DNA of 64,000 nt from Clytia hemisphaerica (Eukaryota; Cnidaria; Hydrozoa; Leptothecata; Clytiidae). Position numbers and translations under genes: made by a program. The stretch spans positions 2,431,101-2,495,100 of the forward strand of contig CACVBU010000600.1 in NCBI GenBank assembly GCA_902728285.1, written 5' to 3'. The notes under the pieces were generated by a model. The model was not told the origin of the DNA. It did not search any database and worked only from the letters and a program-made list of their open reading frames with translations. Positions 17,762 through 59,721 of this stretch are shown here, piece by piece. Within the stretch, counting starts at the first letter, position 1. Each line of letters begins with the position of its first letter.

Positions 17762-18404
17762 TCTCAACTTCAGTTGAGCTAGAATCTGAGAATGTCTGTG
17801 TGTCTGTCTGTCTGTGTGTGTGTGTCTGTCACCAAAACTTTGGGGCAGGCTGGAGACTTCAAAAATGGTCCGATTGGGCTGAAATTTTGCACACTTGATC
17901 CTTGGGCAAATCCCTGGGGGTATTTTTTTCATTTTTTCAAAATTTTAATTTTTGGGGCCTGGGGACGAGTTTTTCGCCAAAACGAGGCTAAAACTTTGGG
18001 GCAGGCTGGAGACTTCAAAAATGGTCCGATTTGGCTGAAATTTTGCACACTTGATCCTTGGGCAAATCCCTGGGGGTGTTTTTTTCATTTTTTCAAAATT
18101 TTGATTTTTGGGGCCTGGGGACGAGTTTTTCGCCAAAACGAGGCTAAAACTTTGGGGCAGGCTGGAGACTTCAAAAATGGTCCGATTTGGCTGAAATTTT
18201 GCACACTTGATCCTTGGGCAAATCCCTAGGGGTGTCTTTTTCATTTTTTCAAAATTTTGATTTTTGGGGCCTGGGGACGAGTTAAAACGAGGCTAAAACC
18301 CAAAATGCTATAATTTTTCTGAAGCCATTAAGTTTACAATTGGGCCTACGGATGATTTCAAAGATACTGAAGTTGAGCCAGTGCGGTTAGCACGTTCGAC
18401 AGTT
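17762..18404 (+). mobile_element. Helentron-like non-autonomous element, copy 1
   Basis: The left end is TCTCAACTTCAGTTGAGC. It is followed by a TGTC/TGTG microsatellite (about 17797-17826) and then a 156-bp tandem array. The conserved right end runs from 'GGGCCTACG' to GTGCGGTTAGCAC (a short GTGC/GCAC hairpin), followed by GTTCGACAGTT. A short hairpin close to the 3' end, no target duplication, a T-T insertion point and a central tandem array match Helentron-type Helitrons and the bivalve 'pearl' elements. No Rep/helicase frame is present. Confidence 0.65.
17834..18300 (+). repeat. 156-bp tandem array, about 3 units
   Basis: Units begin AAAACTTTGGGGCAGGCTGG at 17834, 17990 and 18146, an exact 156-bp spacing. 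The multi-frame open reading seen across it is a by-product of the repeat and is not a gene. Confidence 0.9.
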
Positions 18405-18877: not shown

Positions 18878-20364
18878 TTCTCAACTTCAGTTGAGCTAGA
18901 ATCTGACAATGTATGTATGTATGTATGTATGTATGTGTGTGTGTATGTATGTCTGCCGGAAAACTTTGGGGCAGGCTGGAGACTTCAAAAATGATCGGAT
19001 TTGGTTGAAATTTGGCACACTCGTTCCTTGGGTGAATGTCTGGGGGTGTTTTTTTCATTTTTTGAAAATTTTCATTTTTAAGGGCGTGGTCGCGAGTTTT
19101 CGCCAAAACGAGGCTAAAACTTTGGGGCAGGCTGGAGACTTTAAAAATCATCGATTTTGGTTGAAATTTGGCACACTTGTTCCTTGGGTGAATATATGGG
19201 GGTGTTTTTTTCATTTTTTGAAAATTTTCATTTTTAAGGGCGTGGTCACGAGTTTTCGCGCCAAAACGGGCTAAAACTTTGGGGCAGGCTGGAGACTTTA
19301 AAAATGATCGGATTTGGTTGAAATTTGGCACACTTGTTCCTTGGGTAAATATCTGGGGGTGTTTTTTTCATTTTTTGAAAATTTTCATTTTTAAGGGCGT
19401 GGTCGCGAGTTTTCGCCAAAACGAGGCTAAAACTTTGGGGCAGGCTGGAGACTTTAAAAATCATCGGATTTGGTTGAAATTTGGCACACTTGTTCCTTGG
19501 GTGAATATATGGGGGTGTTTTTTTCATTTTTTGAAAATTTTCATTTTTAAAGGCGTGGTCACGAAGTTTTCGCCAAAACGAGCTAAATTTTGGGCCATGA
19601 TGGAGACATCAAAAATGGTTGGATTTTGTGAAATTGGTACACTTGTTCCTTGGGTGAATATCTGGGGTGTTTTTTTCATTTTTTGAAAATTTTCATTTTT
19701 AAGGCGTGGTCGCGAGTTTTCGCCAAAACGAGGCTAAAACTTTGGGGCAGGCTGGAGACTTTAAAAATGATCGGATTTGGTTGAAATTTGGCACACTTGT
19801 TCCTTGGGTGAATATCTGGGCGTGGTCACGAGTTTTCGCCAAAACGAGGCTAAAATTTTGGGGCATGATGGAGACATCAAAAATGGTTGGATTTGGTTGA
19901 AATTTGGTACACTTGTTCCTTGGGTGAATATCTGGGGGTGATTTTTTCAATTTTCGAAAATTTTCCTTTTTAAGGGCGTGGTTAAATCAGGATTGTTGTG
20001 ATATGATGTCTGAATTCAAAGAAAGGGATTTATGTAAAAATTTGTAGGTTTAAAAGATGAAATAATGTAGAAACTTGATATTACCATTTCCTGCTCCACA
20101 ATTTACTTTAAACCAGTTTCGGTGACTTTCCTTAGCAATTTTTTTTCTTTTCTTAACGTCTAGTCTTAACATTAGTTTTTCAAATTTTATGATGATAATT
20201 TGAAATTTAACGGGAACTATTAATGACTAGTTTTTGCATTCAAAACAATTCTAGAACCCTCTATTTTTTATCAGACTTAGCCTATTAAGTTTACAACAAT
20301 TGGGCCTACGAATGATTGAAAAACACTGAAGTTGAGCCCAGTGCGGTTAGCACGTTCGACAGTT
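18878..20364 (+). mobile_element. Helentron-like non-autonomous element, copy 2
   Basis: The same left end (TTCTCAACTTCAGTTGAGC) and right end (GTGCGGTTAGCAC then GTTCGACAGTT) as the copy at 17762-18404, with a GTAT microsatellite at about 18909-18950 and a longer 156-bp array. The right-hand ~90 bp is about as conserved as the array. Confidence 0.65.
18960..19983 (+). repeat. 156-bp tandem array, about 7 units
   Basis: Unit starts at 18960, 19116, 19273, 19429, 19585, 19736 and 19852. The last spacing is shortened by an internal deletion of about 40 bp. Units are homologous to the array at 17834-18300, with GGTTGAAATTTGGCACACT replacing GGCTGAAATTTTGCACACT. Confidence 0.9.
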
Positions 20365-20988: not shown

Positions 20989-23900
20989 ATGTTTGCCATC
21001 ATTTTTCTTGGATTGAATTTTCTTGTCACCAGCAATCTCGCGCATGCTCAAAATGAACAATTTTCAATCATTTTCGGAGGCGATGTCTCTTTCAGTGGAA
21101 TCCAAAGGAGAATGGTTGAAAATGGGAAATGTTCTTATAATAATTCTTTTGATCAAATCCGATCATATTTGAAGCAGTCAGATGAAGTGTTTGTCAATCT
21201 GGAGACGCCAGTTGGCACTAAGGAACAAGTAGAATCGTTACCGAGATTTGAAGGAAAGAATATTCATTTAGTTGCAGAAGAAGAATGTTTAAGTGCTTTA
21301 CAGTAAGTATTATTGTTTGTCAATAAAAGAATTGTGATGATATACACATCTTTTTTATAATGCAATTCCAATTTTCGGGTCAGAGTTGGGGTTGCTTAGC
21401 ATTCTGACCACCCATGATATTATACCATATTGATGCTTATTGTGTCAAGGGCTATCGTTTGCCATGCTTAGATTATCTAAAAAGCGTTTCCTTTACAAAA
21501 TAGTGAAAGAAAATTGGCTAATTTCAGGGCTCAAGCCTTAGCAACCGGGTTGCTTATAAAAAAATGTGTATACTTTTTTTATAATAGTCAGGGGCTGAAT
21601 CAGGTCAACCTATACATTGAGTATGAACAACATTTTATTGCTGGAATTGGTAGTTTGGACCCTTAGGGTAATTTTAAGCCAGAGTCCCATTTTTCAATAT
21701 GGCGGTTCTTTCAAAATGGCGGATTTTTACAAAAATCCAAAAATGAAAAAATATGACGTTAAAAAACACCAAAAAGTCAGAACAACTTTTTGACACTGGA
21801 ATGGCTGGAGTTTCAAGGTTGGAGTAGTGGAAATAAAGGTGCAAATCCTGAAATACACCAATTTTGCTATAACCATGAGACCCGGGGGGGGGGGGGCACT
21901 GACCTTGATGGACGACGGGGACGTGCGGCTGGAGTTCGATCCTGTCGTCAGAACGAAAATTTTTCCAATTTCCACCCTAACAAGTGGCAAAAATGACTAA
22001 AAATAGATGAAAACTGAAAAGTTTTCTAATTTTTACCCTGAAAATTGTCCAAATAACCAAAAGTGGACCCTGTCAGATACACATCTTGAAAATTAGTAGA
22101 TTTGGGACCCCTCCCGGGTCATGAGAACATGATGAGAACAATTTGAAGATTAAGTTTATGTTGGTTACTTTCTAATATTGTTGGTCGGGTTGTAAACGAT
22201 TGAAATATGATGTGTTTTGTTTCAGGTACGCAGGTATTACATCAGTCAGTTTGGCTAATAATCATATATTCGATCGAAATCAAGAGGGCATTCATTCAAC
22301 AGTCAAATTGTTAGAAAAATATCAAATCAAATATGCTGGTGTAACCCCTGTGAAGGTACTAATGATAATTACTTTGATGGGATTTATTTTTGGTAATATG
22401 TCCCTCTAAACTTATTTTCGCAGATCATACCAAAATCCGCGAAACCTGTGAAAATTTACCCCATCAAAATACTCACCCATTCATATGACAAACTGCAATA
22501 ATTGCATATTTGCATATTTGGATATTTTTTAAAGTTTGCCAAAATTAAAGAATGGTCTCCCCTTTAAATTATTAATAAAATACTTACGAGTAGTGGTAGA
22601 ATAGAAGAATCACGCTGAAAATAGTATTCTGCGGAGAATTTTGTGGCCCTTTGCCTTTTTCTGTGTCCTAAAATATCCGTACATATAGACTATTCGACAC
22701 AAGTGTCGATATACTTTATAGAAATAATGTCATAGTCGTACACTGATAAGGGCCCAAGCGGTTTGTGTGAATGTGTGAATGGGCTTTTTCGGCTGCGTGA
22801 ACGTGAAAATCTACTTTTCGATTGCGTGAATTTCGAAAAAATGTGTAATTGCTTGAAATTTGATTCCCTGGGTGTGTCTGATAAGAACCTTTTTGGACTT
22901 GACTTTTCATTCTCAGGAAGAGTTGATGACCTGATTCAGGGGAGGGAGACAATTTTGGTAGCCGTTTATAATCACACATTTCTGTTCTTCACTAGCAACC
23001 GTTGATGTTCAAACGCAATGGAATCAAGATTGCAATAACAGCATATCTTCTGCCATCAGTAATCGGAAATATTGAACCATTCAAAGAAGGTTTAACTCTC
23101 CAAGAATATAAACCTAAACAGACAGTTAAAGATCTTCAAGAACTACGCAAGACGGTAAAATTGTATACTCGCTTGGGGACACGAGATGTTTTTTTCGCGT
23201 TGGTGCAATGCAGCATGCTCTATCCCACCAAAACAAGAAAAAAATGCGTGTCCCATTGTTTCATAGGACAAAAAGTGAGAAAAATACCCAACCGACACGC
23301 TGATTTTGTCCCTGGGACAAAAGTGAGATTTCACTTTTATTGGTAGAAAGAAAAATGGGGTGGAGACACGAGAAAGCGTTTCAGATTGGTGGGATGGAGC
23401 ATGTTGCATTGCACCAACGCGAAAAAAACTTCTCGTGTCCCCTCGTGCCTTTACAAAGGAGATTGATTTTTACGAGAACTAGATCGTTGGTGAAATCCGA
23501 ATAATATCGTGAATTCTAAATAGACTAATTAGAGTGCGGGAATTACTTCCAATAAAAATTAGACGGTATTATAAACTATAATTAGGCTTAAGGGATATAT
23601 ATTGCAGTTGAGCCAGTGTGGTATGTGTCAAGTTATACACCTATTAACCCTCAGAGGTGCGGCTTTTTAGGGAACCGCTAATGAATTTACAAGGAAGATT
23701 TGTTCTCGGCGCACGGCATTTTTATGCAACAACTAAATCAAACTAAGAAAATTCCTGCTAAAACTCTAAGAGACATTTTCCCGACCATGATTCTGATTAG
23801 AAGGTTGTTGCGTGTGTTTAACAAAATGTAAGAATATATATACCAACACAATAATCATTTTTGCAACAGTCATTATGATTAAAAAGAATTAACTTTCTTT

Positions 23901-26900
23901 ACAATTTTCATGACGGTAAAGTTACTGAGGATTGTTTTTTGTAAAAGTTATTCATAAAAGATATGTCTTATGACAATTAATATGACACAGAGAGAAAATT
24001 TGATAAACATTGCAAATTTAGTGAAAACACACACAAGAACTTTCTTTCTGTAGAAGTGGTAAGACTCTATACTTTTTTTCCGCAAGAGTTATGGTTTTAA
24101 AGGACCCAAACCTGCCAACTGATCGAAGTAATCGAAATGGTCCACGGTGTTCACAAGTTTGGTCCAACAGACAATACAAGACACTGTCCATGCTGCAACG
24201 GTGATTACTACCTATTCAAGTGTGAGGGCTTCAAAGCAAAACCAGATGACGAAAAAGTCAACTTTGTCAAGTCAAAGCGTCTATGTTTCGACTGTCTTGG
24301 TCAAGGACACGGTGTCAGTACCTGCAGCTCAAAAAAGACATGTTTTGCAAAGGGGTGTAAGAAGCATCACCATACTACAATCCACCAGGCAATAGTAAAT
24401 TTAGAGTCCAAGGCCAAACCCGAACTTTCTAAAGACAAAGATAGAAAGGACGGGCCAAAGTTACCAAGCATCAACATGACCAGAAACGATTACAACGTCT
24501 TCCTGAAAGTCGTCCCAGTAACAGTCACAAACTAAGCTGGTCATTCAGTCAATACTTACGCCCTCCTCGAGAGTGGGAGCCAGTGTACACTCATAACAAA
24601 GAGCCTTTGTCAATCACTCAAGTTGCCAGGGAATGTAAAGAAAGTTTCCTTTGGTACCATCAAAGACGAGGAGGAAAAGCAGGCCAAGATTGTCAACTTA
24701 AAGTTATCCTCCACAGATGGAAGCTTCGTCTCTCAAGTAAAGAATGTCTACTCTCTACATGAAGACAATTCAAGGTTCCAGGACAGACAGTTCCAGTAAC
24801 AGATGACCCTAAATGGGATTACATTTGAGACATCGATCTTCCTCAAGTAGAATCGAGACAAGTTTAAGTCCTCATTGGTGCCAACGTGCCAGCAGCTCTA
24901 CTGACCAAAGAAGTTCGAAAGGGAGCATCTGGTCTACCATATGCAACCAAGACACCTTTAGGATGGACCCTGTTCGGATTATACGAAGGAGGTGCATCAG
25001 GATCATTATGGATCAAACACATCAGACCAAGGGTCCACAAAGAGGAGAACAGACTGAACGACCTCGTCAAACAATTCTTGAACACTGAATCCTTCGGAAC
25101 AGAATTCGACATACAGGAACCAATGTCAGTGACGGATAAGAAGTTTCTAAAAGTGCTAGACGATGAAACTACCTTCGAAGACGGCCATTACGTCGTACCC
25201 ATGTTATGGGAGTCTGATGAGAAACTTCCTGACAGCTCACCAATGTCATCCAGGAGACTATCTTACCTCACCAAACGCTTCCAAAGGGACCAAGATTACT
25301 TTACCAAATACAAAGAAAATGTAGATAGTTACCTTAACCACAACTTTGCCAGGAAATTGACAAAGGAAGAATTCAAAGAAAAATCAACCAAATCATGGTA
25401 CCTTCCCCATCACGGAGTGATAAACGAGAATAAGCCAGGGAAGGTGAGAATGGTCTTCGATGCTGCTTCAAAGACCAAGAATCAAAGCTTGAACTACAGT
25501 CTTAGTACCGGTCCAGACTTGCTGAACAGTCTACTTATTTTTACGGTTCAGGAAACACAAAATAGCCATCGTCGCCGACATAGAGAAGATGTTCTATCAG
25601 GTTCGACTGAAACCTGAGGATACCGACTCATTGAGGTTCCTCTGGCACGATGATCCACATTCAAAGGAAGAGCCAGATCAATACAAGATGCTCGTCCATA
25701 TCCTTGGAGCCACATGTTCACCTTGCTGTGCTTCATACGCCCTTAGAAGAGCAATAACTGATCAGAAAAGGTAACTTTCCCTCAGATGTCATCAACACGC
25801 TCCTGAGGAACTCCTACGTTGACGATCTCCTCTCATCAGTAACCAACGAAGACGAGGGGAAAGAGCTGATAAAATCATCTGACATACTGATGGGAAATCG
25901 AGGATTCAATTTGACGAAATACAACAGCAATTCAAAGGAAGTCCTTCAAGCTGCTCCAGAACACAAACGTGCTTCGAATACCTCAATTGAATTTGAAAAC
26001 ACAGTCACTCGAGCTCTAGGTATCAAGTGGGATTTAAAGGAAGATTGTTTTCTCTACAACGTCAACGTCGATCCGAAACCTACTACCCTCACAAAGAGAC
26101 TGATCTTTACAAAAAGCATCAACAGTATCTGACCCTCTGGGCTTCCTAGCACCATTCACACTCAAAGCAAAACTGATCCTTCAAGATTTATAGCGTATGA
26201 AAGTCGAATGGGATGAACCACTAGATGCCAAGACAAACGAAGTTTGGACACAATGGCTAAAGGAGTTGCCACAACTATCAAAATCAGTCCGCATCTCCAG
26301 AAGTCTTGGTCTCATCCCTGAATCATCTCAACTTGTTCAGCTACATGTTTTCTGCGATGCTTCAGAAAGAGCCTTCGCTGCAACTGCCTACATACGAGTC
26401 GAAGAATGCGGCGCTACTCGTGTTCACATCATTATGGCAAAGACCAGAGTTGCACCAATAAACAGACGTCAACTGCAAGGTTCTCTAAAGAAACTTGATG
26501 TGTTCCTAGATGATCAAGGAGTTATGCGTGTCGGTGGTAGACTAAGGTATGGAGACTTCCCCTATGCATCCAAACATCAAATCGTCCTACCAGCCAAACA
26601 CCCTGCTGTCATCTTACTGGGCAGAAAGTTGCACAACCAATTCCGCCATGTTGGAAAAGGTCCAATACTTGTCAAGATACTGCGAAGCATATTCACCTGC
26701 CTCACAACACGAGCAATTCACTTAGAAGTTGCACCATCCTTAGAATCAGACGACTTCATCAACGTATTGGAACGCTGCATTTGTAGGAGAGGAAGCCCAA
26801 AGCTAATTCGTTCCGACTGTGGGACAAACTTTAAAGGAGCAAGCAATGAACTCAAGAAGGAACTAGAACGTATGGACTCTGCCAAGATCGACCGAAGCTT

Positions 26901-29076
26901 GAGACGTCAAAGCATTCAATGGGATTTCAACCCTCCAGAATCCCTACACATGGGTGGGGTATGGGAACGGATGGTTCGAAGTGTAAAGACGTCACTCAAT
27001 GCGATCATCACGGCCGAATACGTCGTGTTAAACGATTTCACTCTCTTGACAGTCCTCACTGAAGTAGAAGCCTTTGTCAACAGCAGACCACTAACGTCAG
27101 TCAGTGATGACACGTCTGACCTGGACGCGCTAACTCCAAACCACCAGAAACAAGTCCAGTCAATCACTCAACAATTCTGGGATAGATGGAGAAGGGAATA
27201 CCTTCCATCTCTAACCGCTCGAAACAAGTGGACTCGAGCTTCAAAAACCGTCCAGGTTGGTGACCTGGTCCTGGTACATGACACTAATTAAAGTATCGAG
27301 TTTGAACATGCGATTGAGTAGAAAAGTTTGTGTGTGTTATCGCTAAAATATAAGAACGTTCTCCATCACACAGGCTTATTACAAAAGGTAGTTACAACGT
27401 ATAAATTAATCGTAATGACAAAGAAAAAAGAGGGAGAGCTTAAAATACAATTTTGTGAACACGCACATAAAACTTTCTACTCATAGTTGTGTTTCGACTC
27501 GATACTTTAATTAGGGACACCCTGTACATTAATGTTTATAGGCAGACGCTGTTATCATTTACCTCCATTGGGACGTGGAATACGCTGCAATTCCTGAGAA
27601 AATAGCTACCTTTCATGACGTCCTCGAAAACGTACACAAATATGTTGACGTCATCATTGGCTCACATGCCCACGTGACTCAGCCTCATTTCTATTACAAA
27701 GATGTTTTGGTTGCACCTCAAATGGGAAATTTTTTATTCCCTATGCACTTGACAAGCTTTTTTGTAAGTCAAAATCTTTATCGGTGTTTCAGGTGGGTGT
27801 TTTTCTACTGTCGGCTTAAGCTGACAGAATTAACAGAACGTGTAATAAAACGCTGAATAGCCCAAAACTATTCATATAAGTTGATAAGTGGATGAAAAGA
27901 GATGGTTACACATTTATGTTTTCGTTTGTAAAAAATAATTTCATCTCCCACAGCAAATCTTTTGTATTTCCTGATCCGCCTATCCTCGCTCTTTTGTTCT
28001 CTCATACATGCCCTCGACCATGTATTAGATATAACGATTTTTCTCCTGTGTTGCTTTGGGAAATACAATATTTTTCTAAAAAGAAAAAAGTTAACGTGCA
28101 ATCATCTCTTTTCATCCAAAAATTATAGTTTGGGCTATTCATCCTTTTATGAAAAAGTTACATTAATCAAGTTAGCTTAAGCGTCAGTGAAAACACCCGG
28201 TGTAAATATGGTATTACTAGGTACTTACACAACCTTGATTTCATTTTTACCGGGCATTGAGAGAGTCCCTAGAGGCCCTAGAGGGTAGTGAGACGATTCT
28301 CGGCAGGTCATTGAGCCTACTTGCATTTTCTAAGGAATAATTCAAATTCACCATTTCATCATTTTTAGGTGTTTGACAGAAACGACATGAAAAATGATCC
28401 TGATTTGAAAGCTTATGAAGATTGGTGGTATCTGTACACGAAACTATTCGAAAATCCTTCTGCACATGCGCTACTCTACAAACTAGTTTTTGATGAGTTA
28501 GTTTTATAACCTTTCCGTCATGATACTAAGCCAAATATCAAGCCTGATGCCCAATTTAAACCAATGAAGGATGTAGTCGAAGGAGAGGGTTTTCTCTCCT
28601 GCGAAGGATGCCCATTTCCAAGTGGTCAGCGTGGCTTTCTCCCCTCGCTGTCAAAATCTAAGTTAAAAAAACCTGATATTTATCTTTCTTTAGAAGTATT
28701 CATATTTTTTAATATTTGAAAGATGTTTCTATGGGAGAATTTTCGTCAAATTTCTTTTTTACAATAAAATTTTTGTTTCCTACCAGAATAAGCTTTCGAG
28801 CCATTTCATTCTTTTGCTTCCAGGAATGGACTTGTTCCAGAATCCAGTCAATACATGGAGACAATCATTGACGTGTCCGAAAGACATTGTTTATATGTCC
28901 GTCCGAAAATATTGAAAGGAGACCCATGGAAAACAATATGCTCGGATGCTGATGATAATTGTATGGGAACTAGCCAGTGTAATCCGTTCGAATGTATTTT
29001 GCAGAATGGGAAAAGGATTAAATATAGTGAGAAACTACTGAAAGCGCTACGAGGCAATAAACCTGTCAAACATTGA
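20989..29076 (+). CDS. CapA/PgsA-like (PGA_cap) secreted protein, tandem copy 1
   Basis: Six exons: 20989-21302, 22226-22355, 22996-23154, 27542-27763, 28369-28496 and 28824-29076. All junctions keep frame and give 401 aa. The start is the ATG at 20989 because the upstream GTG frame is unlikely in an animal. A signal peptide (MFAIIFLGLNFLVTSNLAHA) precedes a metallophosphatase-like CapA domain. Conserved elements are GGDVSFSG (Asp32), VNLETP (Glu72), ANNHIFD (His118), LHWDVEY (His210), GSHAHV (His243, His245) and GNFLFP. The bacterial HWG.EY element reads HWDVEY. Bacterial CapA/PgsA acts in poly-gamma-glutamate capsule synthesis; the substrate in animals is not shown by the sequence. The C-terminal exon is Cys-rich. 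A BEL retrotransposon fills intron 3 without breaking the frame. The exon-5 donor is GTTAGT. Confidence 0.9.
21880..21950. repeat. Short repeat with a tRNA-like B-box word
   Basis: A segment after a G-run, running from CACTGACCTTGATGGACGAC through GGCTGGAGTTCGATCC. It resembles 12575-12640, suggesting an old SINE-like or MITE-terminal fragment. No full tRNA fold is seen. Confidence 0.3.
23175..23442. mobile_element. MITE, GGGGACACGAGA ends
   Basis: Perfect ends GGGGACACGAGA / TCTCGTGTCCCC extend into long arms with TTTTTTTCGCGTTGGTGCAA on both sides. It begins 20 bp after the exon-3 donor of CapA-like copy 1. Confidence 0.8.
24137..24535 (+). pseudogene. BEL gag C-terminal zinc-knuckle fragment
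   Basis: About 130 residues with Cys/His-rich clusters (CPCCNGDYYLFKCEGF, CFDCLGQGHGVSTC, and a terminal KKHHHTTIH) typical of BEL/Pao Gag. The N-terminal gag region is missing. It ends at a TAA just before the protease segment. Confidence 0.75.
24543..27291 (+). pseudogene. BEL pol remnant (protease, RT, RNase H, integrase)
   Basis: The reading frame is broken several times. Protease: LLESGSQCTLI near 24565 has Glu where the catalytic Asp of DSG is expected. RT: GKVRMVFDAASK (about 25440), FYQVRLKPED (about 25590) and YVDD (about 25817) lie in different frames. RNase H: LHVFCDAS (about 26345). The integrase core begins FTCLTTRAIHLEVA (about 26693), missing the upstream zinc finger and first catalytic Asp; the second Asp (IRSDCGTNF) and the ESLHMGG...WE region remain. 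The element cannot be autonomous. Confidence 0.85.
27854..28141. mobile_element. MITE, TGAATAGCCCAAA ends
   Basis: Inverted arms TGAATAGCCCAAAACTAT / ATAGTTTGGGCTATTCA extend to GGATGAAAAGAGATG in both. It lies in intron 4 of CapA-like copy 1. Confidence 0.75.
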
Positions 29077-30724
29077 TCAATAGAGTGTATGTTTCGAAGA
29101 CCACACCGTCTGACAATTTGCAAACTAGAATCGATATATTCATGCATGCATAAAATGGCATTTTTATGAAAGGAGTGAGCCTTGCTTTGGGGTAATTGAC
29201 AATTTCTAATTGAAAATGCTCTAAAAATGGCATTCTTAGCTTGTGTAGCAAAATTCCATGATAGTGATATTCTTATTTTTATAATGGACATTCTTATAAA
29301 GTGTATTCTTATAAAAAAAGAGCGTGTATCAATATGTTTCACAAAATTTGCTTCAGCAAATGACTAAACGTTGTTTTAACATTCATTTAACGTTATACCG
29401 ACACCTTGAACATGATATTAACATTATTTTGACGGCTAATTCAAAGCCAATCCACACTTCATTTAATGGTATAGAAATGAATTTATTTAAGGTTTCGGAT
29501 AAAATGTCGATTTTGCTTTTAATTTGCGTTCCGAAAATTAAACATGAGAAGCGTGCAATTCAAAAGGGTTATCCAAGTGATGCTATTCACACGTCGGCAA
29601 GCTCTCAACTAGTAACTTCTAGCAACTTCGCCACAGTTCCATTAGTAATCTAAAAGCTACTTCCCTTAGCAATTTATGTAAATTTCTGTAGAGAATAGGA
29701 TACTTATAAATGACGTGCGAGGGAGCACAGACGAGTGCGAGGGAGCACAGACGAGTGCGAGGGAGCACAAGACGAAATTATTTAAATTATTGTATACAGT
29801 TTTATAAAATAAAGGTTAGCGAATAGTTAGAAGAGGATGAGGGTATCCAAATATGAAGCATAACTAGAATTTTTTAATTCCTTATGGTTTCTTCCAAACA
29901 GCTCAGTTTTCAGAGACAGTCTGGGCACCCAATTTTGACCACCGGGGTTTGGAAGTTTTTGTCCGGGGGATTTCAGTTGATGATAACCTCGAAAATTAAA
30001 GTGAAAATTAAAGGAATAATGTGATAATGATATGTGATATGAGTAATGTATAATGATGTGTAAAAAATAAGAACATATGTATTTTTAAGCATTCTTAGAT
30101 AAAGCGGATTTTATATAAAGATGAGTAGGTAATATATTTAACACTTTTAGTATTTCGTACGGAAAATAAGTGTATTTTTGAGAGGCTTGAGCCCGACTAT
30201 TACTATCAGAATAAGTGTGAAACCTGCCTCGCAAAATTGATGTGTCTTTTTCTTTCTATCCTTTTCGAGTGTCTCATTTTGGAGAAATAGTAAATAAATA
30301 AAGTTATTTTCGGTTCGAAGATAAGAAAATAAACGTAAACAAGTTATTCGACAGAAAATGAGATTTTGAAACAATTTACCAAATGAAAGCTAACGACAAA
30401 CACATTTCAATTTAAATGGATACATTTAAGTTTATTTTAACTGTTGTCAAAAGAAGTCAGTACATTGTTCTTCGTAAACATTTAAAACGAACTCTAGTTT
30501 TTTAAATTTTATTTTCAACTGATGATCGTCTCCACGGCGTGAAACTATTAGTATTGAAATAAAACACCATTAACTTCATTCGGCGTATGCATTCGGCATA
30601 GTATAAGGGAGTATAAGTTTATATTATAAACTTTAAATTCGTTGAATCTTATCTTCCAAGTAAATAACGATTTAAGTCTAATGCAGCTTTTTCATTTTGG
30701 TTTATAACTCGACCGTTAAAGAAA
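29077..30724. other. Spacer between the two CapA-like genes
   Basis: About 1.65 kb. It contains a transposon end (TTCTTATAAAAAAAGAGCGTGTA, near 29305), a three-unit 20-bp repeat and an AATAAA near 29806 that could end copy 1. No further exon was seen. Confidence 0.45.
29711..29769. repeat. 20-bp tandem repeat, three units
   Basis: GTGCGAGGGAGCACAGACGA repeated three times downstream of CapA-like copy 1. Each unit contains the short palindromic pair GTGC...GCAC. Confidence 0.85.
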
Positions 30725-33700
30725 ATGTTGTTTTTTATTTTTCTTCGCTTATCAATAATTTGTTCTTGCACCGCACGCAACGTTAAGACAAGCGCTCAAA
30801 ACGAGGCGGAGCAATTTTCAATCATTTTTGGAGGTGATGTCTCTTTCAGTGGAATCCAAAGAAGAATGGTTGAAAATGGGAAATGTTCTTATAATAACTC
30901 TTTCGCTCAAATTCGATCATATTTGAAGCAATCAGATGAGGTGTTTGTCAATCTGGAGACGCCAATTGGTACCAAGGAACAAGTAGAATCGTTACCGAGA
31001 TTCAAAGGAAAAAATATTCATTTAGTTGCAGAAGAAGACTCCTTAAGTGCTTTAAAGTAAGTCTTATTTTTTCCCGAGTTTGGAAAAGTTATTGCAGTAT
31101 GCTTCCCTTTATATCAACAGACTTGCCATGAAAAAAAAAACAAAGAGCCAACTACACCCACATTTCACAAACCCATTGGAATCCCTTCCCATTGGAAAAT
31201 TCGGTGAAAATATCGTCTCCAATGGAAAATTATACCATAATTTTTGTCCTCGGTGAGAATAATCAGATAAGCAAATCCTCACTACAAAATATTGTGTTTT
31301 TTCCAACCCTGCTGATTTTCTCGCTCGAAAACAATGAAATTCATATCCCAAGCCATAAAATATGGGAATAATAAGCTCTAGTTCGTTATTTTTAACCCAC
31401 TGACTGAAAAAATCCTACCGGTTCTGTGAGAAATCCACTCCTGCCGACACTGGTTTACCTGGTTGGACAATGCAGTCTCATAGCACCTTTTCTTCATAAG
31501 AATTTTTTTCTATCAGGTACGCAGGTATTACATCAGTCAGTTTGGCTAACAATCATATATTCGATCGAAATCAAGAAGGCATTCAATCAACAGTCAAATT
31601 GTTAGAAAAATATCAAATCAAATATACTGGTGTTACTCCTTTAAAGGTATTAAAGTTAACTTTCTCCGAATGGAATTCGCCCGGGAAATCTAACTTGCTC
31701 GAAGATTTTGCACGTTTCTCCCTGTCTGCAACTTTGAATGAGACCAGGGAGAGGGTTTGGTACCTAGGCAAAACGGATGTCAGGTATGTGCGAGCCAAGG
31801 TTCTCATTTATACAGCCTCGAAAGTCTCTCTGATGGTTACAAATAACAATTTCACGAAAATCGAAAGTCCCCCCTCTCTAAGAGTTACGATTTTCAAAGA
31901 TTTGGACCAAAATTTTGTGAAAATCGACAAAAAATCTTGGGATAAAATCTCTCTAAGGGTCCCCCTGACTTACAAAATCTGCTTTAATTTCTATCTAGAA
32001 ACCGTTGATGTTCAAACGCAATGGAATCAAGATTGCAATAACAGCTTATTTGCTGCCACCAGTTATCGGAAACATGAAACTATTCAAAAAAGGTTTAACT
32101 CTCCAAGAATATAAACCTAAACAGACAGTTGAAGATCTTCAAGAACTACGCAAGACGGTAAACGATCTATTAAACACCCCTTCTCACAGACCCACCATTC
32201 CCACTGGAAAAATTGGCCAAAACATCGTCCCCGGTGGGAAATTATCCTCCAATTTTTGTCCCCACTGATAATAATCAAATAAACCAATCCTCGCTGCAAA
32301 TATTATACTATTTTTCCCATCATCACTGAATTTCTGACTTGAAAACAAAATAATTTAAATCCCCAGCCATAAAATATATAGGAATAATAATCCCCATCAA
32401 GTTTCAGTCCGTTATTTTCATCCCCACTGGATGGAAAAATCCTACCGCGTCTGTGAGAAGGGATGTTATTAACTACGGTAAGCCTAATGAATTGATAACT
32501 GTCGGATCTGCCCATAACTTTAAACAAAATTTCAACTGGTGACGTATGAAAGCCTAATTGACTTCAAATTAATATACCCGTTTTTTATTAGAACCTATCA
32601 CTAACCTTTATATATCCCTGGACCAAGTTACTCAATCCCGGCCAACCAAAAGTCTTTGATCGGAGTTTTTTTTGAAATTGGTACGCTAATGGCGGCACTA
32701 CACAATAGCGATGGAAATGCATCGAGAGCGCTAGATGTACTAGATTAGACGTTCTTCTCGGGTACCAATTCCAAAAAAAACTCCAATCAAAGATTGTGGA
32801 TATAGCTTGGTCTAGGGATATATAAAGGTCAGTGGAACCTCTACATTACCCTTTGACAATGCTATGACTTCTTCTTTTATAATCTAATGGCGAAATTAAC
32901 GGCATGGTTTGAGCTATAACTTTGAATTTCCCACATCCTAATGTCGTAATGACGATTTATAACTTCAATATTTTAATGGGATAAATTCTCGCGGGGATTA
33001 AATTTCGCGGATTTTGCGGATATTCGGGTGACATTCGTGAAATTAAGTCCCAATGGAAATTCGGAAAGGCGTTATCCGCGAAATATTTCCAAACAAAACT
33101 CAAAAAATGTCAAATACACTACTTTAAAATGTTTATTTGCATCAAAGAAGCCCTAATAATGCGTATTTCAATAACCAAAATGTATATTTAGTTGTAAAGG
33201 CACAAAATCATGAAAATATTGTCTTCCAATAGTGTCATCCGAGAAATTAAGTCCCCAAGAAATCTCAATATTTCGCAGATGAGCTTAACCACGAAATTTA
33301 ATCCCCGCAAAAATTAATCCCCGCGAAAATTTATCCCATTAAGGGCTCTGACCATAGTGAATTTTTCATAATTGCCGTGTTTAAAATGTGTCTTCTGACT
33401 GATGTAACCAGAAAAACTATGGCATGTTATACATTTTCTGTTAGACAAACTATTCCTGAATCTGAAAATTCAAAAATTGCATTGAAAACATTTGATGAAG
33501 AAGAAAATGAAGACTTTTGCGAGGAAGAGTATTTCAACTTTGAAGAGCTTAGTTTCGGCGAAGAAAAAACATTTTGAAAAAACTTTCGCAGTAGATGGTG
33601 TATCTTTTACCGAACAGTAAAAGTTTTTGCGGAAAATTTTTGTAAATGCTTTTTTGTCTCGAAATCTTCAAAATAGTGGTTTTTCATCAATTTTTCATCT

Positions 33701-36700
33701 GGATTTTGCTTAAAAAAACAATCATAACTTTTGACACCTCTTTTTAGAAAAATTTTCCGCAAAATTTAAAATAGTTCAATTCTTTGCGGAAAGTTTGAAA
33801 AAAGTTCGAAACAAAAAGGTTAATTACCCATTAAAACTTAGCACTTTTTATAAAAGAAGGTGATGCAACATATTATTAACGTCTTTTTAAAGTTCATAAC
33901 GTCATTTTTGCAATTAAGTTCTTAATTACTCTTAAGGGGTTTGATTAAAAAGAAGTTTATAAAGGCAATTCTTTGTTAAAAGTGTTAAAGAATCTAAAAC
34001 ATAACGTTTATGTTCAGATACTAAAATCAATTTTCTGACTATGGTCAGAGCCCTTAAAGAGGTCAAAGTCAATGATTTATTCGTATTAGGCTGACGTTGT
34101 CATTATTTACTTCCATTGGGATGTTGAATACGCTACACTCCCAGAACGTATGACTGAATTCTATGACGTCATTGAAAACATACACGAATATGTTGACGTC
34201 ATCATTGGCTCACATGCCCACGTGACTCAGCCTCATTTCTATTACAAAGATGTTTTGGTTGCACCTCAAATGGGAAATTTCTTATTCCCTATGCACTTGT
34301 CAAGCTTTTTTGTAAGTAGACAGCGTCAGTTTTTTCATTGTAAAAAAGGCCTTGGCAATTTTTGTGGAATCCTAAATTACTTTTAGCTTTAAAAAAAAAG
34401 GCAAAAAACTTCAGAATAACTTAGTCTTGGTACTTGGCAACATGTTGAAGATATGTCTGAGCTAAAAGACCATGACCTTTGATATCTTAATTGTCTTTTA
34501 TAGGATTAGAATATATAGCATCCGGGGGGGGGGCACTCGATTCAAAAACGACCATACGTGCGGCACAAAATTTGGCCTTTGAAATCAGTGCAGAGAGAGT
34601 TTGAGGAAAATTTGAGCAAATTTGAGCAAAAAACGACCCTTACGGTACACCTTCTTGAAAAATATGGTTAGATTTTCGAAATTTTACACCCTTAGAGTGC
34701 AATTTTCTCATCTTTGCTGATTTCGACCCTTACAGTGCACCTTTGGGAAGCTTGGAAAACTTATCCTTAAGGACCGCACATATGACACCACCCCCCCCCC
34801 CCCGGGATAACTTTACTTATGATTTTACTTTCATATATATTTTCAGCTATTTGACAGAAACGACATGCAAAATGATCCTGATTTAAAAGCTTATGAAGAT
34901 TGGTGGTATTTGTACACGAAACTATTCAAAAATCCTTCTGCACATGCTCTGCTCTACAAACTGGTTTTTGATAAGTAAGCTTTCTGTATTCTCCAAGTTG
35001 GCGTTTAAGCCCATGTTCGCACGTGACTGTTTCATTTCGCTCCACAACGAAATGAAGCCATTCTATTGGTTACATTCAAGTGTTACGTCACTTCTAATCA
35101 ATAGAATGGCTTCATTTCGTTTCGGAGCGAAACGGAACCGTCACGTGCGAAAATGGTCTAAAACGACCAAATAACGGCGTCTTTGTAACTTCTACATAAC
35201 GTGTCGAATAAAAGGTTGAGGGACGTTGTGTGTATATGTAGTTCTTGTTGTCGTTTTACGTTGCTTAGGTACACTGTAAAAAATAATTTTCTAAAAAGTA
35301 GATAAAAATTCTTAATACTAGATAAATTATCCCGCTTTCAAGATAAATTTTCTATTCCGATGGGTAAGAAATTTTATCTTGATTTGAGATGGCATAGATT
35401 TTTTATCTAGAAGAATTTTCTTGTTTTAAGATTAAAACCAAGTGCACATTTCAACCTAAATTATCTTGTTTTAAGATGATATTTTTCTCAAAACAGGATA
35501 ATATCATTAGATATTTTTTCTTGTCATATCTTGTTTTTAGATATTTTCACAATAGAGATCTTTCTTAATTTAAGTTGTTGTATATGGGAATTACCCAGTT
35601 GACACATTGTAAAGACAGAAATGGGTACCGACAGAAATGCGTGGTTTTCATTAAAATTGAGTCTGTATAATTTGAACCAAAAGGCTGGTGTTTCATCTTT
35701 TCTCCGTGATTAAAATGCCGCAAAAATCTCAAGCTCGACAGACCAACAATGCATCCATGGACGAATTTGAGATCTTTGGATCCTATCATCAACAAAAATA
35801 AAGTAGGCCTGTTGAAAGCCTTTCATATATACATCTTTAAGAGTAATAACAATTAACGAAAGTATTAACATGTATACACCTTTATTTATCTGTACGCAAA
35901 AATTCCATTCAAAAACAATTCCAAGTTAAAATCCTTAGTGTATGCGAGACTTTGCTCGATGAAGGGATGGTTAAATTTAAGGTACAATAGAACTACAAAA
36001 AAGAAACCCAATGATATGGTCATTCGATTGCACTGAAAAAAAGTTTGAAAAGTACGAAAACGAACTGTATAAATTATTAGCAAAAATAAGCTCTACAAAA
36101 GTTCTAAAAAACTCGATAGTAGTTATAAAAATAAACCACAAAATGAAATACACCCCTGTCTCACAACCCCGGTGGAACTTTTTTCCTCATTGGGGATAAG
36201 AATTTCAGTGCGAATAGTTTATTTCGAATAGGGAAGGAATCAAAGTTAATTTCCCAGTAGTGGGACTGAAATTTCAGGTTTTTTTCCTACCGGGACGAAA
36301 TTTTTGTCAAATTTTTCAGTTGGGCGGGGGTCCCAGCGGCTCTGTGAGATAGAGGTGTCGAAATCGCTGGGTAGAAATTCTGAAGTCTTTTACTGCATTA
36401 TTAAAGCTTTCGTAATGAGAATCTTTACAACAAGTGTCTTTGAAGACGATCCGGTGCTAGATTGTCATGCATGCAGGTAATCAGCTCTGTCTGTTGGATA
36501 GTATTCGTGGAGCAAGTAAAACAAAACCATTAAACATAAGAAACCGAGTGGAAGCGGCTCCACCGTCAAAATCTTGCTACCGCACACGATAAACGATTTT
36601 CATGTCCTAACTTCTACCATTAGTCTTGGCATCTCAGGCAAACAGTTCTTTCTTTCTTGCGTTCGGTTGATCAGTCTCCTGTAGAAAAGGAAATTAGAAT

Positions 36701-39700
36701 ATATTAGACTTCACAAGCCAACATAGCTCAAAGATGAGTAAGTGCTTCTTTCCACCTACGCTTGCTAAATGACTCTGAAGAGATTTTGTACTTGGAGTGA
36801 CGAAGACGCAAATATTGAAGGTGCTGGGTAAACAATTCAGAAGTTTTCTTACCTTTTGAAAACGACTTGTAGAGATGTAGACAAGTAGATGACGTTTCCC
36901 TTCAGGGTTTGCACTTCATTTTTCCTGAAAAAAAATACAAAGAGCTTTGATTTCAATATAAATGGCTTGTACCAGAAAAAGTCCAAAATAGTATTCAAGG
37001 TTTTTACGCAGAAGCAAACGAGCTACTCCATAAAGGTAGCCCGGTAGTCTGCACAATTAAGGTAGCACATGACTACAAATTGTTTCTGCACTGACTTGCC
37101 AATGTTACTGTTATCTTTCTAAGGTTTTGTAGAAGCAAACGGGCCGCTCCATTAAGGTAGCCCGGTAGTCTGCACAATTTAGGTAGCACATGACTACAAA
37201 TTGTTTCCACACTGACTTGCCAATGTTACTGTTATCTTTCTAAGGTTTTGTAGAAACAAACGGGCCGCTCCATTAAGGTAGCCCGGTAGTCTGCACAATT
37301 TAGGTAGCACATGACTACAAATTGTTTCCACACTGACTTGCCAATGTTACAGTAATTTTTCTAAGGTTTTGTAGAAGCAAACAGGCCGCTCCGTTAATGT
37401 AGCCCGGTAGTCTGCACAATTTAGGTAGCACATGACTACAAATTGTTTCCGCACTAACTTGCCAATGTTACAGTAATTTTTCTAAGGTTTTGTAGAAACA
37501 AACAGGCCGCTCCATTAAGGTAGCCCGGTAGTCTGCACAATTTAGGTAGCACATGACTACAAATTGTTTCTGCACTAGCTTGCCAATGTTACAGTAATCT
37601 TTTTAAGGTTTTGTAGAAACAAACAGGCCGCTCCATTAAGGTAGCCCGGTAGTCTGCACAATTTAGGTAGCACATGACTACAAATTGTTTCTGCACTGAC
37701 TTGCCAATGTTACTGTTATCTTTCTAAGGTTTTGTAGAAACAAACGGGCCGCTCCGTTAAGGTAGCCCGGTAGTCTGCACAATTTAGGTAGCACATGACT
37801 ACAAATTGTTTCTGCACTAGCTTGCCAATGTTACAGTAATCTTTTTAAGGTTTTGTAGAAACAAACAGGCCGCTCCATTAAGGTAGCCCGGTAGTCTGCA
37901 CAATTTAGGTAGCACATGACTACAAATTGTTTCTGCACTGACTTGCCAATGTTACTGTTATCTTTCTAAGGTTTTGTAGAAACAAACGGGCCGCTCCGTT
38001 AAGGTAGTCCGGTAGTCTGCACAATTTAGGTAGTACATGACTACAAATTGTAATTGCTGCCACGCATTTATGCTTGCCTATACGAAGTGTCTCATTCAAG
38101 AATATTGATATCGTTACGAATCTTGCTAGAATATATCCCTTATACTCTTGTGATCATTAAGTGAAACAGGCTCAAACCATATTTGTAAGATTGTAGGTAG
38201 GTAGGTAGGTTCAGTAAAGTTAACATATAAAAAAAGATACTTATCTTATAATCGCGTCTTGTCTTTGCTCTTCTCCCCTCAAAAAGAATCTCTTCATCAT
38301 ACATACAAAACTTCTCACAAAAAAAACTTCAAAAAAATGTTAAAACCTTCGTAGTGAAATTTTTCATTCAATAAACTATTCTTTTGATTAAAAACAAAAG
38401 AAGTTTTCATGCTTTAGTAAATACGATGGCCCCGAGGTTTCTCCACTTCTAAAAAAAGTTCTGAAAGTTTCAAGAAGAGAAGTAAAAATTTAAAGAAGGG
38501 AAGTAAATATTTCGAGAAGGGAAGTAAAAATTTTAAAAAGGCAAGTAAAATGTCTTTAAGTATCGAAATTGTGATTAAATTTCTACATTGGCGAGCTGCC
38601 AAAATGGTTTTAACCCTTTTTAAATTGTTTAAAGCACAAGACAACGTCTAAAACACGTGATCCTACAACAAAGATTATATAAATATAAGTACTCTCCCAA
38701 AGTGTTTTTATAATTTATGAAAAGCTTTATAACTTTTGCTTAAGGGATAGCTTTAAACGTTTAATCACACTAATCAACATAATTGCCATTACAAACATCC
38801 TCTGGAGTCTGGTAAGGGGTCTCTTTGTAATAACAATAAACTTTCTACGTCTGGGGTTGTAATCAAAACCACGTGGTATTTTTGTCATTTTTTACTTCTC
38901 TTCTTCATTTTTCAAAGCTTGAAAGAGAAGTAAAAAAATCAAGAAGAAAAGTAAAATTTTCAGTGAAGTAATACAAAAAAATTACTTCTCTTCTTAAAAT
39001 TTTTACTTCCCTTCTTCATTTTTTACTTCTCTTCTTGAATTGTCTTTTTCTAGAAGTGGAGAAACCTCGGGGCCATCGTAAGTAAATCCTTTTATTTCGC
39101 TTCGCGCACTTTCTCTATAGCTCTAGATATTTTATCTGACCGCCCTAGAATATAAGAAATTTTATCTAATTTTAAGATAACGTACACTTATTTCAAAACT
39201 CGAAAATTTTAATCTTAATTTAAGAAATGAGTTCTTAAAATCAGTTAAGTTTTCTTAAATTGAGATGACTATCTAGCTTAAGAAAATTATTTTTTACAGT
39301 GTAGCATTTAACATATTTTTATTTTTTTGTCGTTGGATAGTTCACTTTTTTGAGTGAGAATTTCTTTTCTTTCCCAGAAATTAACGTAGAAATGCTTAAA
39401 AACTGTTTTTTAGACGAGTAAAGTTTTGAATTGATTGGTCTTTCCAGGAATGGACTTGTTCCAGAATCCAGTCAATACATGGAGACAATCATTGACGTGT
39501 CCGAAAGACATTGTTTATATGTCCGTCCGAAAATACTGAAAGGAGACCCATGGAAAACCATTTGTAGTAACGATGATTATAATTGTATGGGAACGACGCG
39601 TTGTAACCATTTTGAGTGCACCTTGAAAGATGGCAAAGTCATTAAATATAAAAATAAATTATTGAATGCTTTACGTAGCAATGACTTGAATCGTTGCAGA

Positions 39701-39718
39701 GATAAAATAGAACTTTGA
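30725..39718 (+). CDS. CapA/PgsA-like (PGA_cap) secreted protein, tandem copy 2
   Basis: Six exons: 30725-31056, 31517-31646, 31999-32157, 34090-34311, 34847-34974 and 39448-39718. They keep frame and give 413 aa. Exons 2-5 have exactly the same lengths as in the upstream paralog (130, 159, 222, 128 nt). The signal peptide (MLFFIFLRLSIICSC...) differs from copy 1. All CapA-family elements are kept: GGDVSFSG, VNLETP, ANNHIFD, FHWDVEY, GSHAHV and GNFLFP. The C-terminal exon is longer by six codons and has an extra Cys. The copy looks functional. Introns are swollen by at least seven transposons, including a 4-kb element in intron 5. The enzymatic role in animals is not established by the sequence; surface or extracellular poly-gamma-glutamate chemistry is inferred from the bacterial family. 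Confidence 0.9.
31152..31438. mobile_element. MITE, TCTCACAGACCCA family
   Basis: Left arm ACACCCACATTTCACAAACC and right arm CCGGTTCTGTGAGAAA. In intron 1 of CapA-like copy 2. Confidence 0.65.
32171..32464. mobile_element. MITE, TCTCACAGACCCA family
   Basis: Left ACACCCCTTCTCACAGACCC and right CGCGTCTGTGAGAAGGG. It starts about 14 bp after the exon-3 donor of CapA-like copy 2. It is one of the best-preserved copies. Confidence 0.75.
32604..32829. mobile_element. MITE, ACCTTTATATATCCCT ends
   Basis: Inverted arms ACCTTTATATATCCCTGGAC / GTCTAGGGATATATAAAGGT continue through GGAGTTTTTTTTGAAATTGG. In intron 3 of CapA-like copy 2. Confidence 0.8.
32977..33338. mobile_element. TTAA-flanked MITE, TGGGATAAATT ends
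   Basis: Inverted ends TGGGATAAATTCTCGCGGGG / CCCCGCGAAAATTTATCCCA lie directly between TTAA (32973-32976) and TTAA (33339-33342). The piggyBac superfamily duplicates TTAA. The interior has further 'TTCGCGG' and 'GGGGATTAA' words. Confidence 0.8.
33343..34053. mobile_element. TTAA-flanked MITE, GGGCTCTGACCATAGT ends
   Basis: Perfect 16-bp ends GGGCTCTGACCATAGT / ACTATGGTCAGAGCCC between TTAA (33339-33342, shared with the previous element) and TTAA (34054-34057). Piggybac-like by target duplication. An open frame of 66 codons inside (33377-33577, Glu/Phe-rich) is not recognised. Confidence 0.8.
34522..34806. mobile_element. G-run-ended MITE with CCCTTACAGTGCA words
   Basis: The left end is CCGGGGGGGGGGCACTCG and the right end is a C-run closing CCCGG. 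Subterminal ACGACCATACGTGCGGC matches GGACCGCACATATG near the other end. The interior repeats 'CCCTTACRGTRCACC'. In intron 4 of CapA-like copy 2. Confidence 0.7.
35012..35154. mobile_element. Palindromic MITE, GTTCGCACGTGA family, copy 2
   Basis: Arms ATGTTCGCACGTGACTGTTT and AACCGTCACGTGCGAAAAT enclose CCATTCTATTGG / CAATAGAATGG. Same family as 10593-10734. Intron 5 of CapA-like copy 2. Confidence 0.75.
36149..36358. mobile_element. MITE, TCTCACAGACCCA family, nested
   Basis: Ends TACACCCCTGTCTCACAACC and GCTCTGTGAGATAGAGGTGT, inside the compound element at 35272-39301. Confidence 0.7.
37010..38050 (+). repeat. 121-bp tandem array, nine units
   Basis: Unit starts at 37010, 37131, 37252, 37373, 37494, 37615, 37736, 37857 and 37978, each exactly 121 bp apart; the last unit is partial. 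Each unit contains GGTAGCCCGGTAGTCTGCAC. Later units alternate two variants, giving a 242-bp higher-order repeat. A GTAG microsatellite follows near 38194-38210. Confidence 0.95.
38423..39079. mobile_element. Nested hAT-like MITE, ACGATGGCCCCGAGG ends
   Basis: Inverted ends ACGATGGCCCCGAGGTTTCT and its complement, continuing as arrays of 'AGAAGGGAAGTAAA' on the left and 'TTTACTTCCCTTCTT' on the right. Flanked by TAGTAAAT (38415-38422) and AAGTAAAT (39080-39087), a 7-of-8 match. Confidence 0.75.
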
Positions 39719-58661: not shown

Positions 58662-59644
58662 ATTCCATCTTTTTCAGTCTGGTTCTTCGTTTTTGCGTCA
58701 GTTGCCTTTTCTTTATACTTCTTTCTTTGGTCTAAAGTTAGATCCTCGCAAACGCTCACACCCTTGTACATCTCTATCCCTTTCAATGCTGGAAGATTTC
58801 CAAACACACTATCCTTTTCCTCCTCACTGTTTAGAGTAACAATGAGTGGGCGCTTTTTCCCATCAGTTGATTTGCCAATTCTTGAGATACGTTTTATGTC
58901 TACTTTGACATGGAGCTTTTCAAGTGATGTTACCCATGTCTCATCTTTCTTAGGAGCATCATTTGTTGTTGTCTCTTCAACGCCGTGGATAATCAAGTTT
59001 TTTGACCGTCTGATTTGATCTCTTTCTTCCGCTGCCTCCTCATCACGGACTTCTTTGATAACAGTCTTGATATCATTGTTCGGAGTGGTGGTCTCACAAT
59101 TGGTAGAGACAACAGCAGCGGCGTATGATCTTTTACACTCTTCTTTAAGAGTTGACAGAATTTCCGTCCGGAAATCTTCTAGCTTCTTTTCTAGTTTGTT
59201 TTCGACGTATTCTACGGTGTGCAAGGCTGGATCATTAGAGAGTTTAGTTTTTAACTCTGTAAGCTCTTGTTTCTGAGATTCGACAATTTCAAGAAGATGT
59301 TGTTCTGTTGTTTTCAGTTTCTTGATCGTTTTTTCGTTTTCTTTGATAGTTTCTTTGAGTTTCGCTAATTCTGCGGCGGTTTTTAGTGACGGTTGTGTTG
59401 CAGCAGAGGTAACGAGATTCGAAAGGTCTTTAGAAACTGTAACGCAGTTTGGACAGACGTATTTACAGCTGGTTCTTCTGTCATCTTTAAAGCATTGTAG
59501 CATATATGGTGGTAATCTAGTGCAAAGAAAATGTACTAGTCTGTTGCACTTTGAACATGCCAAACTGTCTTGATTACGATCGTCTACACATGAGGCGGTG
59601 GTGCAAAGAGGATTTGGAGTTATCTTTTGTCTTGTGGACGTCAT
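58592..59644 (-). CDS. LINE ORF1 nucleic-acid-binding protein
   Basis: Intact 350-aa frame from ATG. The N terminus is a PHD-like Cys/His cluster (CSKCNRLVHFLC ... CKYVCPNC, about aa 32-77). A coiled coil follows at about aa 90-135 (KLKETIKENEKTIKKLKTTE). The C-terminal part begins RSKNLIIHGVEE at about aa 212 and resembles the RRM-like/transposase-22 ORF1 region of L1- and CR1-type elements. It overlaps the start of ORF2. In active LINEs this protein packages the element RNA. It remains open although ORF2 is damaged. Confidence 0.85.
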   Translation of the reverse strand: MTSTRQKITPNPLCTTASCVDDRNQDSLACSKCNRLVHFLCTRLPPYMLQCFKDDRRTSCKYVCPNCVTVSKDLSNLVTSAATQPSLKTAAELAKLKETIKENEKTIKKLKTTEQHLLEIVESQKQELTELKTKLSNDPALHTVEYVENKLEKKLEDFRTEILSTLKEECKRSYAAAVVSTNCETTTPNNDIKTVIKEVRDEEAAEERDQIRRSKNLIIHGVEETTTNDAPKKDETWVTSLEKLHVKVDIKRISRIGKSTDGKKRPLIVTLNSEEEKDSVFGNLPALKGIEMYKGVSVCEDLTLDQRKKYKEKATDAKTKNQTEKDGIWRVIGSAKNGFRLKKIMANRQN

Positions 59645-59721
59645 TGTAGATGTTTTAATGAGAATGCAGTTTTCGATGGTTGGATGTTGGCTGGTTTAAG
59701 TTGGTTTTAGTAGCGATTTTT

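Follow-up and report, generated by a model that had tools for sequence, protein, structure and literature searches.

What does an animal do with a secreted protein of the bacterial CapA/PgsA family? The question is raised by a 64,000-nucleotide stretch of the genome of the hydrozoan Clytia hemisphaerica (contig CACVBU010000600.1, positions 2,431,101 to 2,495,100; hereafter the window), in which two complete, adjacent CapA-family genes occupy positions 20989-39718 of the plus strand, gene A starting at 20989 and gene B ending with its stop codon at 39718. We propose, with a probability of about 0.45, that the cnidarian pgsAA/CapA gene is present here in two functional copies arranged in tandem and that their products act as gamma-glutamyl epimerases in the lumen of the stinging capsule. 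The gene is of a known kind in a known lineage, new neither to animals nor to Clytia, and a cnidarian pgsAA of bacterial origin was reportedly described from Clytia hemisphaerica by Denker et al. in Current Biology in 2008 (doi 10.1016/j.cub.2008.07.031). The earlier note on this DNA had mentioned such a report, which is borne out by an existing Clytia protein record (P0001, see below) and by papers citing Denker et al., which tie a bacterial gene transfer to cnidarian stinging cells (PMC3189188; PMC4670088) or refer to that work for polyglutamate synthesis (PMC5566210). What the present analysis adds, Denker et al. being compared through the citing papers only, is the second copy, the gene structure, the recognition of a chimeric record, a third family member, a cysteine-rich tail and the proposed epimerase function.

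Both genes consist of six exons, coding for 401 (A) and 413 (B) amino acids, with GT-AG borders in all ten introns and with matching exon pattern and phases:

20989..21302, plus strand: gene A exon 1, with ATG, hydrophobic leader and the GDV and NLE motifs
22226..22355, plus strand: gene A exon 2, with the ANNHIFD motif
22996..23154, plus strand: gene A exon 3
23155..27541, plus strand: gene A intron 3, containing pieces of a BEL/Pao-type retroelement
27542..27763, plus strand: gene A exon 4, with the HWDVEY, SHAH and GNF motifs
28369..28496, plus strand: gene A exon 5
28824..29076, plus strand: gene A exon 6 and stop codon, with the cysteine-rich tail, the initial 88 nt identical to gene B exon 6
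30725..31056, plus strand: gene B exon 1, with ATG, hydrophobic leader and the GDV and NLE motifs
31517..31646, plus strand: gene B exon 2, with the ANNHIFD motif
31999..32157, plus strand: gene B exon 3
34090..34311, plus strand: gene B exon 4, with the HWDVEY, SHAH and GNF motifs
34847..34974, plus strand: gene B exon 5
34975..39447, plus strand: gene B intron 5, containing an array of a 121-bp unit
39448..39718, plus strand: gene B exon 6 and stop codon, with the cysteine-rich tail

The landmarks GDV, NLE, NNH, HW, SHAH and GNF, and also HWDVEY, are found in both A and B, and the PGA_cap profile PF09587 (gathering score 27 bits) matches A with 163.9 bits (E 6.4e-48) and B with 167.2 bits (E 6.4e-49), so that exon models and profile scores bear out the description in the earlier note of two intact, adjacent six-exon genes carrying these motifs. 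For comparison within the family, clustering at 70% identity together with length limits left 135 bacterial proteins, 89 of which were taken into an alignment of 95 out of 228 proteins, the other six being animal-like; the family-wide GD, NLE, ANNH, H and HxH elements, each kept in 84-89 of the 89 bacterial rows, are present in both copies. Both proteins are apparently secreted, the one feature on which this prediction is based being a hydrophobic stretch at the N-terminus (best 19-residue mean 1.59 in A and 1.55 in B, versus 1.15 and 1.17 past residue 30). Retention of B in the endoplasmic reticulum through its C-terminal KIEL was considered and discarded, as this ending misfits the KDEL-type pattern and is missing from A.

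The two proteins are identical at 335 of 401 aligned residues, with nonsynonymous (dN) and synonymous (dS) distances of 0.096 and 0.39 (NG86). A blastn comparison of the two loci returned six blocks, one per exon, which overrun the exon edges by 16 nt at most, and at 11-40 nt beyond the exons only 3-15 of 30 positions match. Because only the exons of A and B still align, the duplication is old enough for intron similarity to be gone. Over 365 ungapped codons the copies differ by 114 nucleotide changes and 45 amino acids, whereas the same 114 changes placed randomly (n = 1000) led to a mean of 84 amino-acid differences (minimum 69) and created a stop in 995 of the placements. Both copies have therefore been kept by, and are under, purifying selection.

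A phylogenetic tree was calculated from 58 rows, namely 27 of 80 loci (75 of which yielded an open reading frame, ORF), 22 bacterial and seven animal-like proteins (P and L numbers are our handles for proteins and loci, respectively) and genes A and B; the fragments P0003, P0125, P0126, P0127 and P0232 and the chimeric P0001 were omitted. An animal-like group of nine, comprising A, B, the Clytia protein P0229 and six environmental proteins, received support of 100/99, was recovered in 100% of 200 bootstrap trees and sits on a long stem (0.89) with no close bacterial lineage attached; a quick tree calculated beforehand from 63 rows gave the same result for the six animal-like rows in it. The environmental members (P0002, P0121-P0123, P0230 and P0231) are probably cnidarian, judging from their position beside the Clytia proteins. 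In the environmental fragments P0125 and P0127 the similarity to Clytia stops within about three residues of Clytia intron 1, which suggests that this intron is old and common to Clytia and its environmental relatives. A tree placing the two genes beside a recent bacterial lineage had been proposed as a test of the earlier note, and we found no such placement in either tree. A recent bacterial donor was likewise rejected, the identity of any bacterial protein among the matches listed being about 34% at most and the animal-like group standing separate. Genes A and B are of old bacterial ancestry. Their status as resident animal genes with a local duplication, also claimed in the earlier note, is supported, and recent bacterial contamination is ruled out by the introns at matching positions, the intronic retroelement, purifying selection and the tree. 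Nearest to the animal-like group are P0242, P0256, P0259, P0037, L033 and P0124 (100/98); we name no donor, because P0242, P0256 and P0259 form long branches, the root is a midpoint root only and the quick tree left the nearest neighbours undecided.

Some further observations concern the family at large. The environmental, long-branched P0256 and P0242 beside the animal-like group both contain three cysteines within the C-terminal 100 residues and may be intermediates or unrecognised eukaryotes. CapA-type genes also seem to occur in phages, P0001 matching the function-unknown family phrog_23677 of PHROGs (E 8.8e-17). A second Pfam domain is listed for several CapA proteins, PF01875 for P0236, P0257, P0292, P0298 and P0331, PF02643 for P0251 and P0286, and PF00144 for P0289.

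By profile as well as by predicted fold, the best solved match of A and B is the peptide epimerase MslH (PDB 8gq9, 8gqb, 8itg, 8ith; PMC10406935), the predicted fold containing both the calcineurin-like core and the further parts of this single solved family member. In MslH the C-terminal carboxylate of the substrate lies at a Ca(II) site, and the proposed agents that remove and return a proton are two dyads, His88/Asp91 and His295/Asp11 (PMC10406935). Identity to MslH is 16-17% over the aligned part; of the eight key residues of MslH, both A and B carry seven unchanged. The dyads correspond to H118/D121 and H245/D32 and are present in all ten rows of our residue table of animal-like proteins (which includes P0001, largely repeating gene A), but they are not specific to animals, as H118 occurs in 89, D121 in 76, H245 in 88 and D32 in 88 of the 89 bacterial rows. 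The Ca(II) ligands Glu44, Asn87 and His259 are kept in A and B (the residue at E72 being Asp in P0122 and P0123), while the eighth key residue, the ligand His261, is replaced by the aspartate of HWD, which could possibly offer a metal ligand at this position in the Clytia pair. A and B further differ from MslH by a His for Gly293 and by their hydrophobic leader and cysteine tail. The replacement of HWG.EY by HWDVEY, to which the earlier note had drawn attention, is present in both copies, but we discarded it as a signature of the animal group, since across the ten rows the site holds D four times (once in P0001, repeating gene A), G four times and M and L once each. On the MslH equivalog model NF038314 of NCBIfam, which has a cut-off of 700 bits, P0001 scored 32.1 and P0002 26.5 bits and P0003 gave no match, so these proteins do not count as MslH equivalogs. 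A match to NheB in NCBIfam was dismissed as chance level (13.9 bits, E 0.021, cut-off 500).

Motif I of the two-metal calcineurin-like phosphoesterases is DxH. At this site the five animal-like rows that cover it (of six) have Ser at D+2, and His is found in 6 of the 89 bacterial rows; the site is not decisive, however, as the Fe(II)-site residues of the phosphodiesterase YmdB do not include a D+2 His (PMC10406935). A and B might also be read as secreted hydrolases, i.e., two-metal phosphoesterases of the calcineurin fold, nucleotidases or similar enzymes with another extracellular substrate: phosphatases and 5'-nucleotidases rank next among the folds, His243 and His245 make up a pair resembling GHxH, and one more ligand could come from the additional Asp at position 212. 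We consider such an activity improbable.

Cnidarians are commonly said to owe their polymer to a bacterial "PGA synthase" gene, yet the transferred subunit is probably not the polymerase. In one study Bacillus subtilis produced 26 g/L of an L-rich polymer without pgsA, as compared to 3 g/L with it (PMC6029982), so that the earlier note, in assigning the bacterial family to poly-gamma-glutamate synthesis, is not precise enough, even if older reports of polymer loss without pgsA speak for it. Bacterial PgsA is located at the surface, in a complex encoded together with PgsB and PgsC (PMC6029982; PMC5751247). A and B have the Pfam family PF09587 in common with it by name, and the epimerisation of glutamate in the polymer, reported for PgsA of PgsBCA (PMC7168211), would be shared with the proposed function of A and B only.

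Several lines of literature are consistent with such a function. PgsA is said to convert L-Glu to D-Glu in the growing polymer, and MslH may act alike (PMC7168211, citing Ogasawara et al., 2019). In B. subtilis, the D/L ratio of the polymer is 5/95 with pgsBC and 75/25 with pgsBCA, and feeding of D-Glu leaves the pgsBC product unchanged (PMC6029982). Cnidarians contain cnidarins, gamma-linked cyclic tetraglutamates of which two of three forms carry D-Glu; all nine cnidarians tested had them, eight other animals did not, and a nematocyst-free tentacle extract of Alatina lacked them (PMC7070617). The exact pathway of the cnidarian polymer is still undefined according to PMC5566210, but a gamma-glutamyl transpeptidase is favoured as the polymer maker (PMC5584322), and this enzyme and a related one were detected in polar capsules (PMC5566210). 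Among the top-ranking matches of our searches, made largely in the open literature, we found no paper that links this animal gene to epimerisation or to the cnidarins.

In the mechanism that we propose, A and B would be secretory proteins that work inside the developing capsule, whose lumen corresponds topologically to the cell exterior, where PgsA is also located. There they would invert, in a metal-dependent manner, the alpha-carbon of glutamate within gamma-linked chains supplied by another enzyme, perhaps the gamma-glutamyl transpeptidase, with the dyads His88/Asp91 and His295/Asp11 (MslH numbering) removing and returning the proton. Internal glutamate units could be served as the C-terminal one is in MslH, because each gamma-linked residue keeps a free alpha-carboxylate. 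The analysis itself establishes the gene structure, the selection, the family, the predicted fold and the retention of catalytic residues; the site in the capsule, the substrate and the reaction are inferred.

A number of points weigh against this proposal. The resemblance to MslH is equally strong or stronger in generic bacterial CapA proteins, so the fold is no evidence for the reaction; likeness to MslH was indeed rejected as proof of function when a bacterial control scored equally and the MslH model gave higher scores to bacterial members. The authors of PMC6029982 proposed a conformational effect or an interaction with a racemase, a racemase that converts free glutamate could be the source of the D-Glu of cnidarins, and according to a review the polymer of nematocysts is short-chain L-PGA (PMC3815933). 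Capsule location and expression of A and B are presumed from the literature on the cnidarian gene. Moreover, the older studies with little or no polymer in the absence of PgsA (PMC6029982; PMC5751247) would fit a role in assembly just as well, and L033, from the nearest bacterial group, is located in a polysaccharide cluster.

A polymer-binding or assembly role of the PgsA type is, on balance, unlikely. A review assigns to PgsA the transport of the polymer and a stimulation of PgsBC and states that its deletion stops synthesis (PMC5751247), two older studies cited in PMC6029982 obtained no or far less polymer without it, and the cnidarian pgsAA has been called essential to the making of the polymer while nematocytes form (PMC4670088). 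Polymer yield in B. subtilis is, on the other hand, higher without PgsA, as given above, and the catalytic residues are kept among members that are only about 30-50% identical, although a mere binder would not need them. We also know of no PgsB or PgsC partner in cnidarians, which we count against assembly. Six bacterial relatives, which are perhaps not PgsA proper, were checked for their neighbours, and the ten ORFs flanking them showed no pgsB- or pgsC-like Pfam domain. The neighbourhood of L033, with glycosyl- and pyruvyl-transferase genes, would rather agree with a role outside the stinging capsules, for instance in mucus, in the gut or in defence, where surface glycans or material of bacterial envelopes would be modified, and with at least three copies in Clytia, one of them strongly diverged, roles may have split. 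We nevertheless doubt this explanation, given that the published cnidarian gene is linked to stinging cells (PMC3189188; PMC4670088) and that the present analysis gave no pointer to another tissue.

The nine animal-like proteins have a cysteine-rich tail in common. Cysteines at P0001 positions 48, 340, 357 and 364 occur in ten of ten animal-like rows, and at none of the six sites examined (48 near the N-terminus and five in the tail, 340, 357, 364, 370 and 375) is a cysteine found in any of the 89 bacterial rows, many of which are gapped there. We do not claim a strictly animal-only tail, as a cysteine pattern devised ad hoc was found in one of 323 other proteins too (P0256, a loose fit); the pattern in turn misses P0003, P0122, P0123 and P0126, which have a whole or partial tail. 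An oxidising lumen would be a fitting place for the tail that exon 6 encodes. It is conceivable, as a tentative extension of the epimerase reading, that a transferred CapA joined to a disulfide-rich tail gave rise to a small family of capsule-lumen epimerases placing D-Glu in both poly-gamma-glutamate and cnidarins. If the epimerase reading is true, it would explain the usefulness of a lone transferred subunit and connect it to the D-Glu of cnidarian gamma-glutamates; an animal would then possess a transferred peptide epimerase that tunes the pressure matrix of the capsule or protects it against gamma-glutamyl hydrolases of the same animal. Gene knock-out works in Clytia (PMC6078951), so this reading is directly testable, and the second copy must be removed along with the first.

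The best protein match of the two genes is P0001, a UniRef entry of 407 residues from Clytia hemisphaerica. Its residues 1-358 equal gene A and its last 89 residues equal gene B, the B-matching part starting at the exon 5/6 junction, i.e., exons 1-5 of A are followed by exon 6 of B. Because A and B do not differ over the opening 88 nt of exon 6, this record is most likely an annotation chimera that arose in gene modelling or transcript assembly, and this public Clytia CapA protein should be flagged as such. A real transcript, in which read-through splicing from A exon 5 to B exon 6 would yield a third, mixed protein (a matter independent of function), seems very improbable to us: the identity does switch at the exon 5/6 junction and the phases are compatible, but exon 6 of A and five exons of B would have to be skipped, and the 88 identical nt sit exactly where an assembler would switch copies. 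No separate full-length record of gene B was present among the matches listed (120 of 223, 114 of 114 and 120 of 471), but one may be among the four members of the P0001 cluster. P0229 (NCBI/UniRef, "capsule biosynthesis protein CapA-like") is a third, divergent CapA of Clytia hemisphaerica; recorded on a 788-kb contig, it shares with A and B the family, the cysteine tail and the dyads, but has HQG in place of HWD and lies at a path length of 2.08 from gene A.

Retroelement pieces of the BEL/Pao type in intron 3 of gene A extend over 24100-27300 on the same strand as the gene, with the Pfam matches Peptidase_A17 and DUF5641 confined to 26194-27288 and none in 24868-25614. The 121-bp unit in intron 5 of gene B is repeated in tandem 8.6 times (37010-38051), and upstream of gene A a 156-bp unit forms two arrays (17834-18283 and 18960-19824). 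Two long minus-strand ORFs, 9224-10324 (partly of low complexity) and 10771-11721, gave no Pfam match, nor did the ORF 58595-59695, the third of a non-LTR-like retroelement on the minus strand (55828-59695) whose other two ORFs encode a reverse transcriptase (55828-57597) and an endonuclease (57500-58327).

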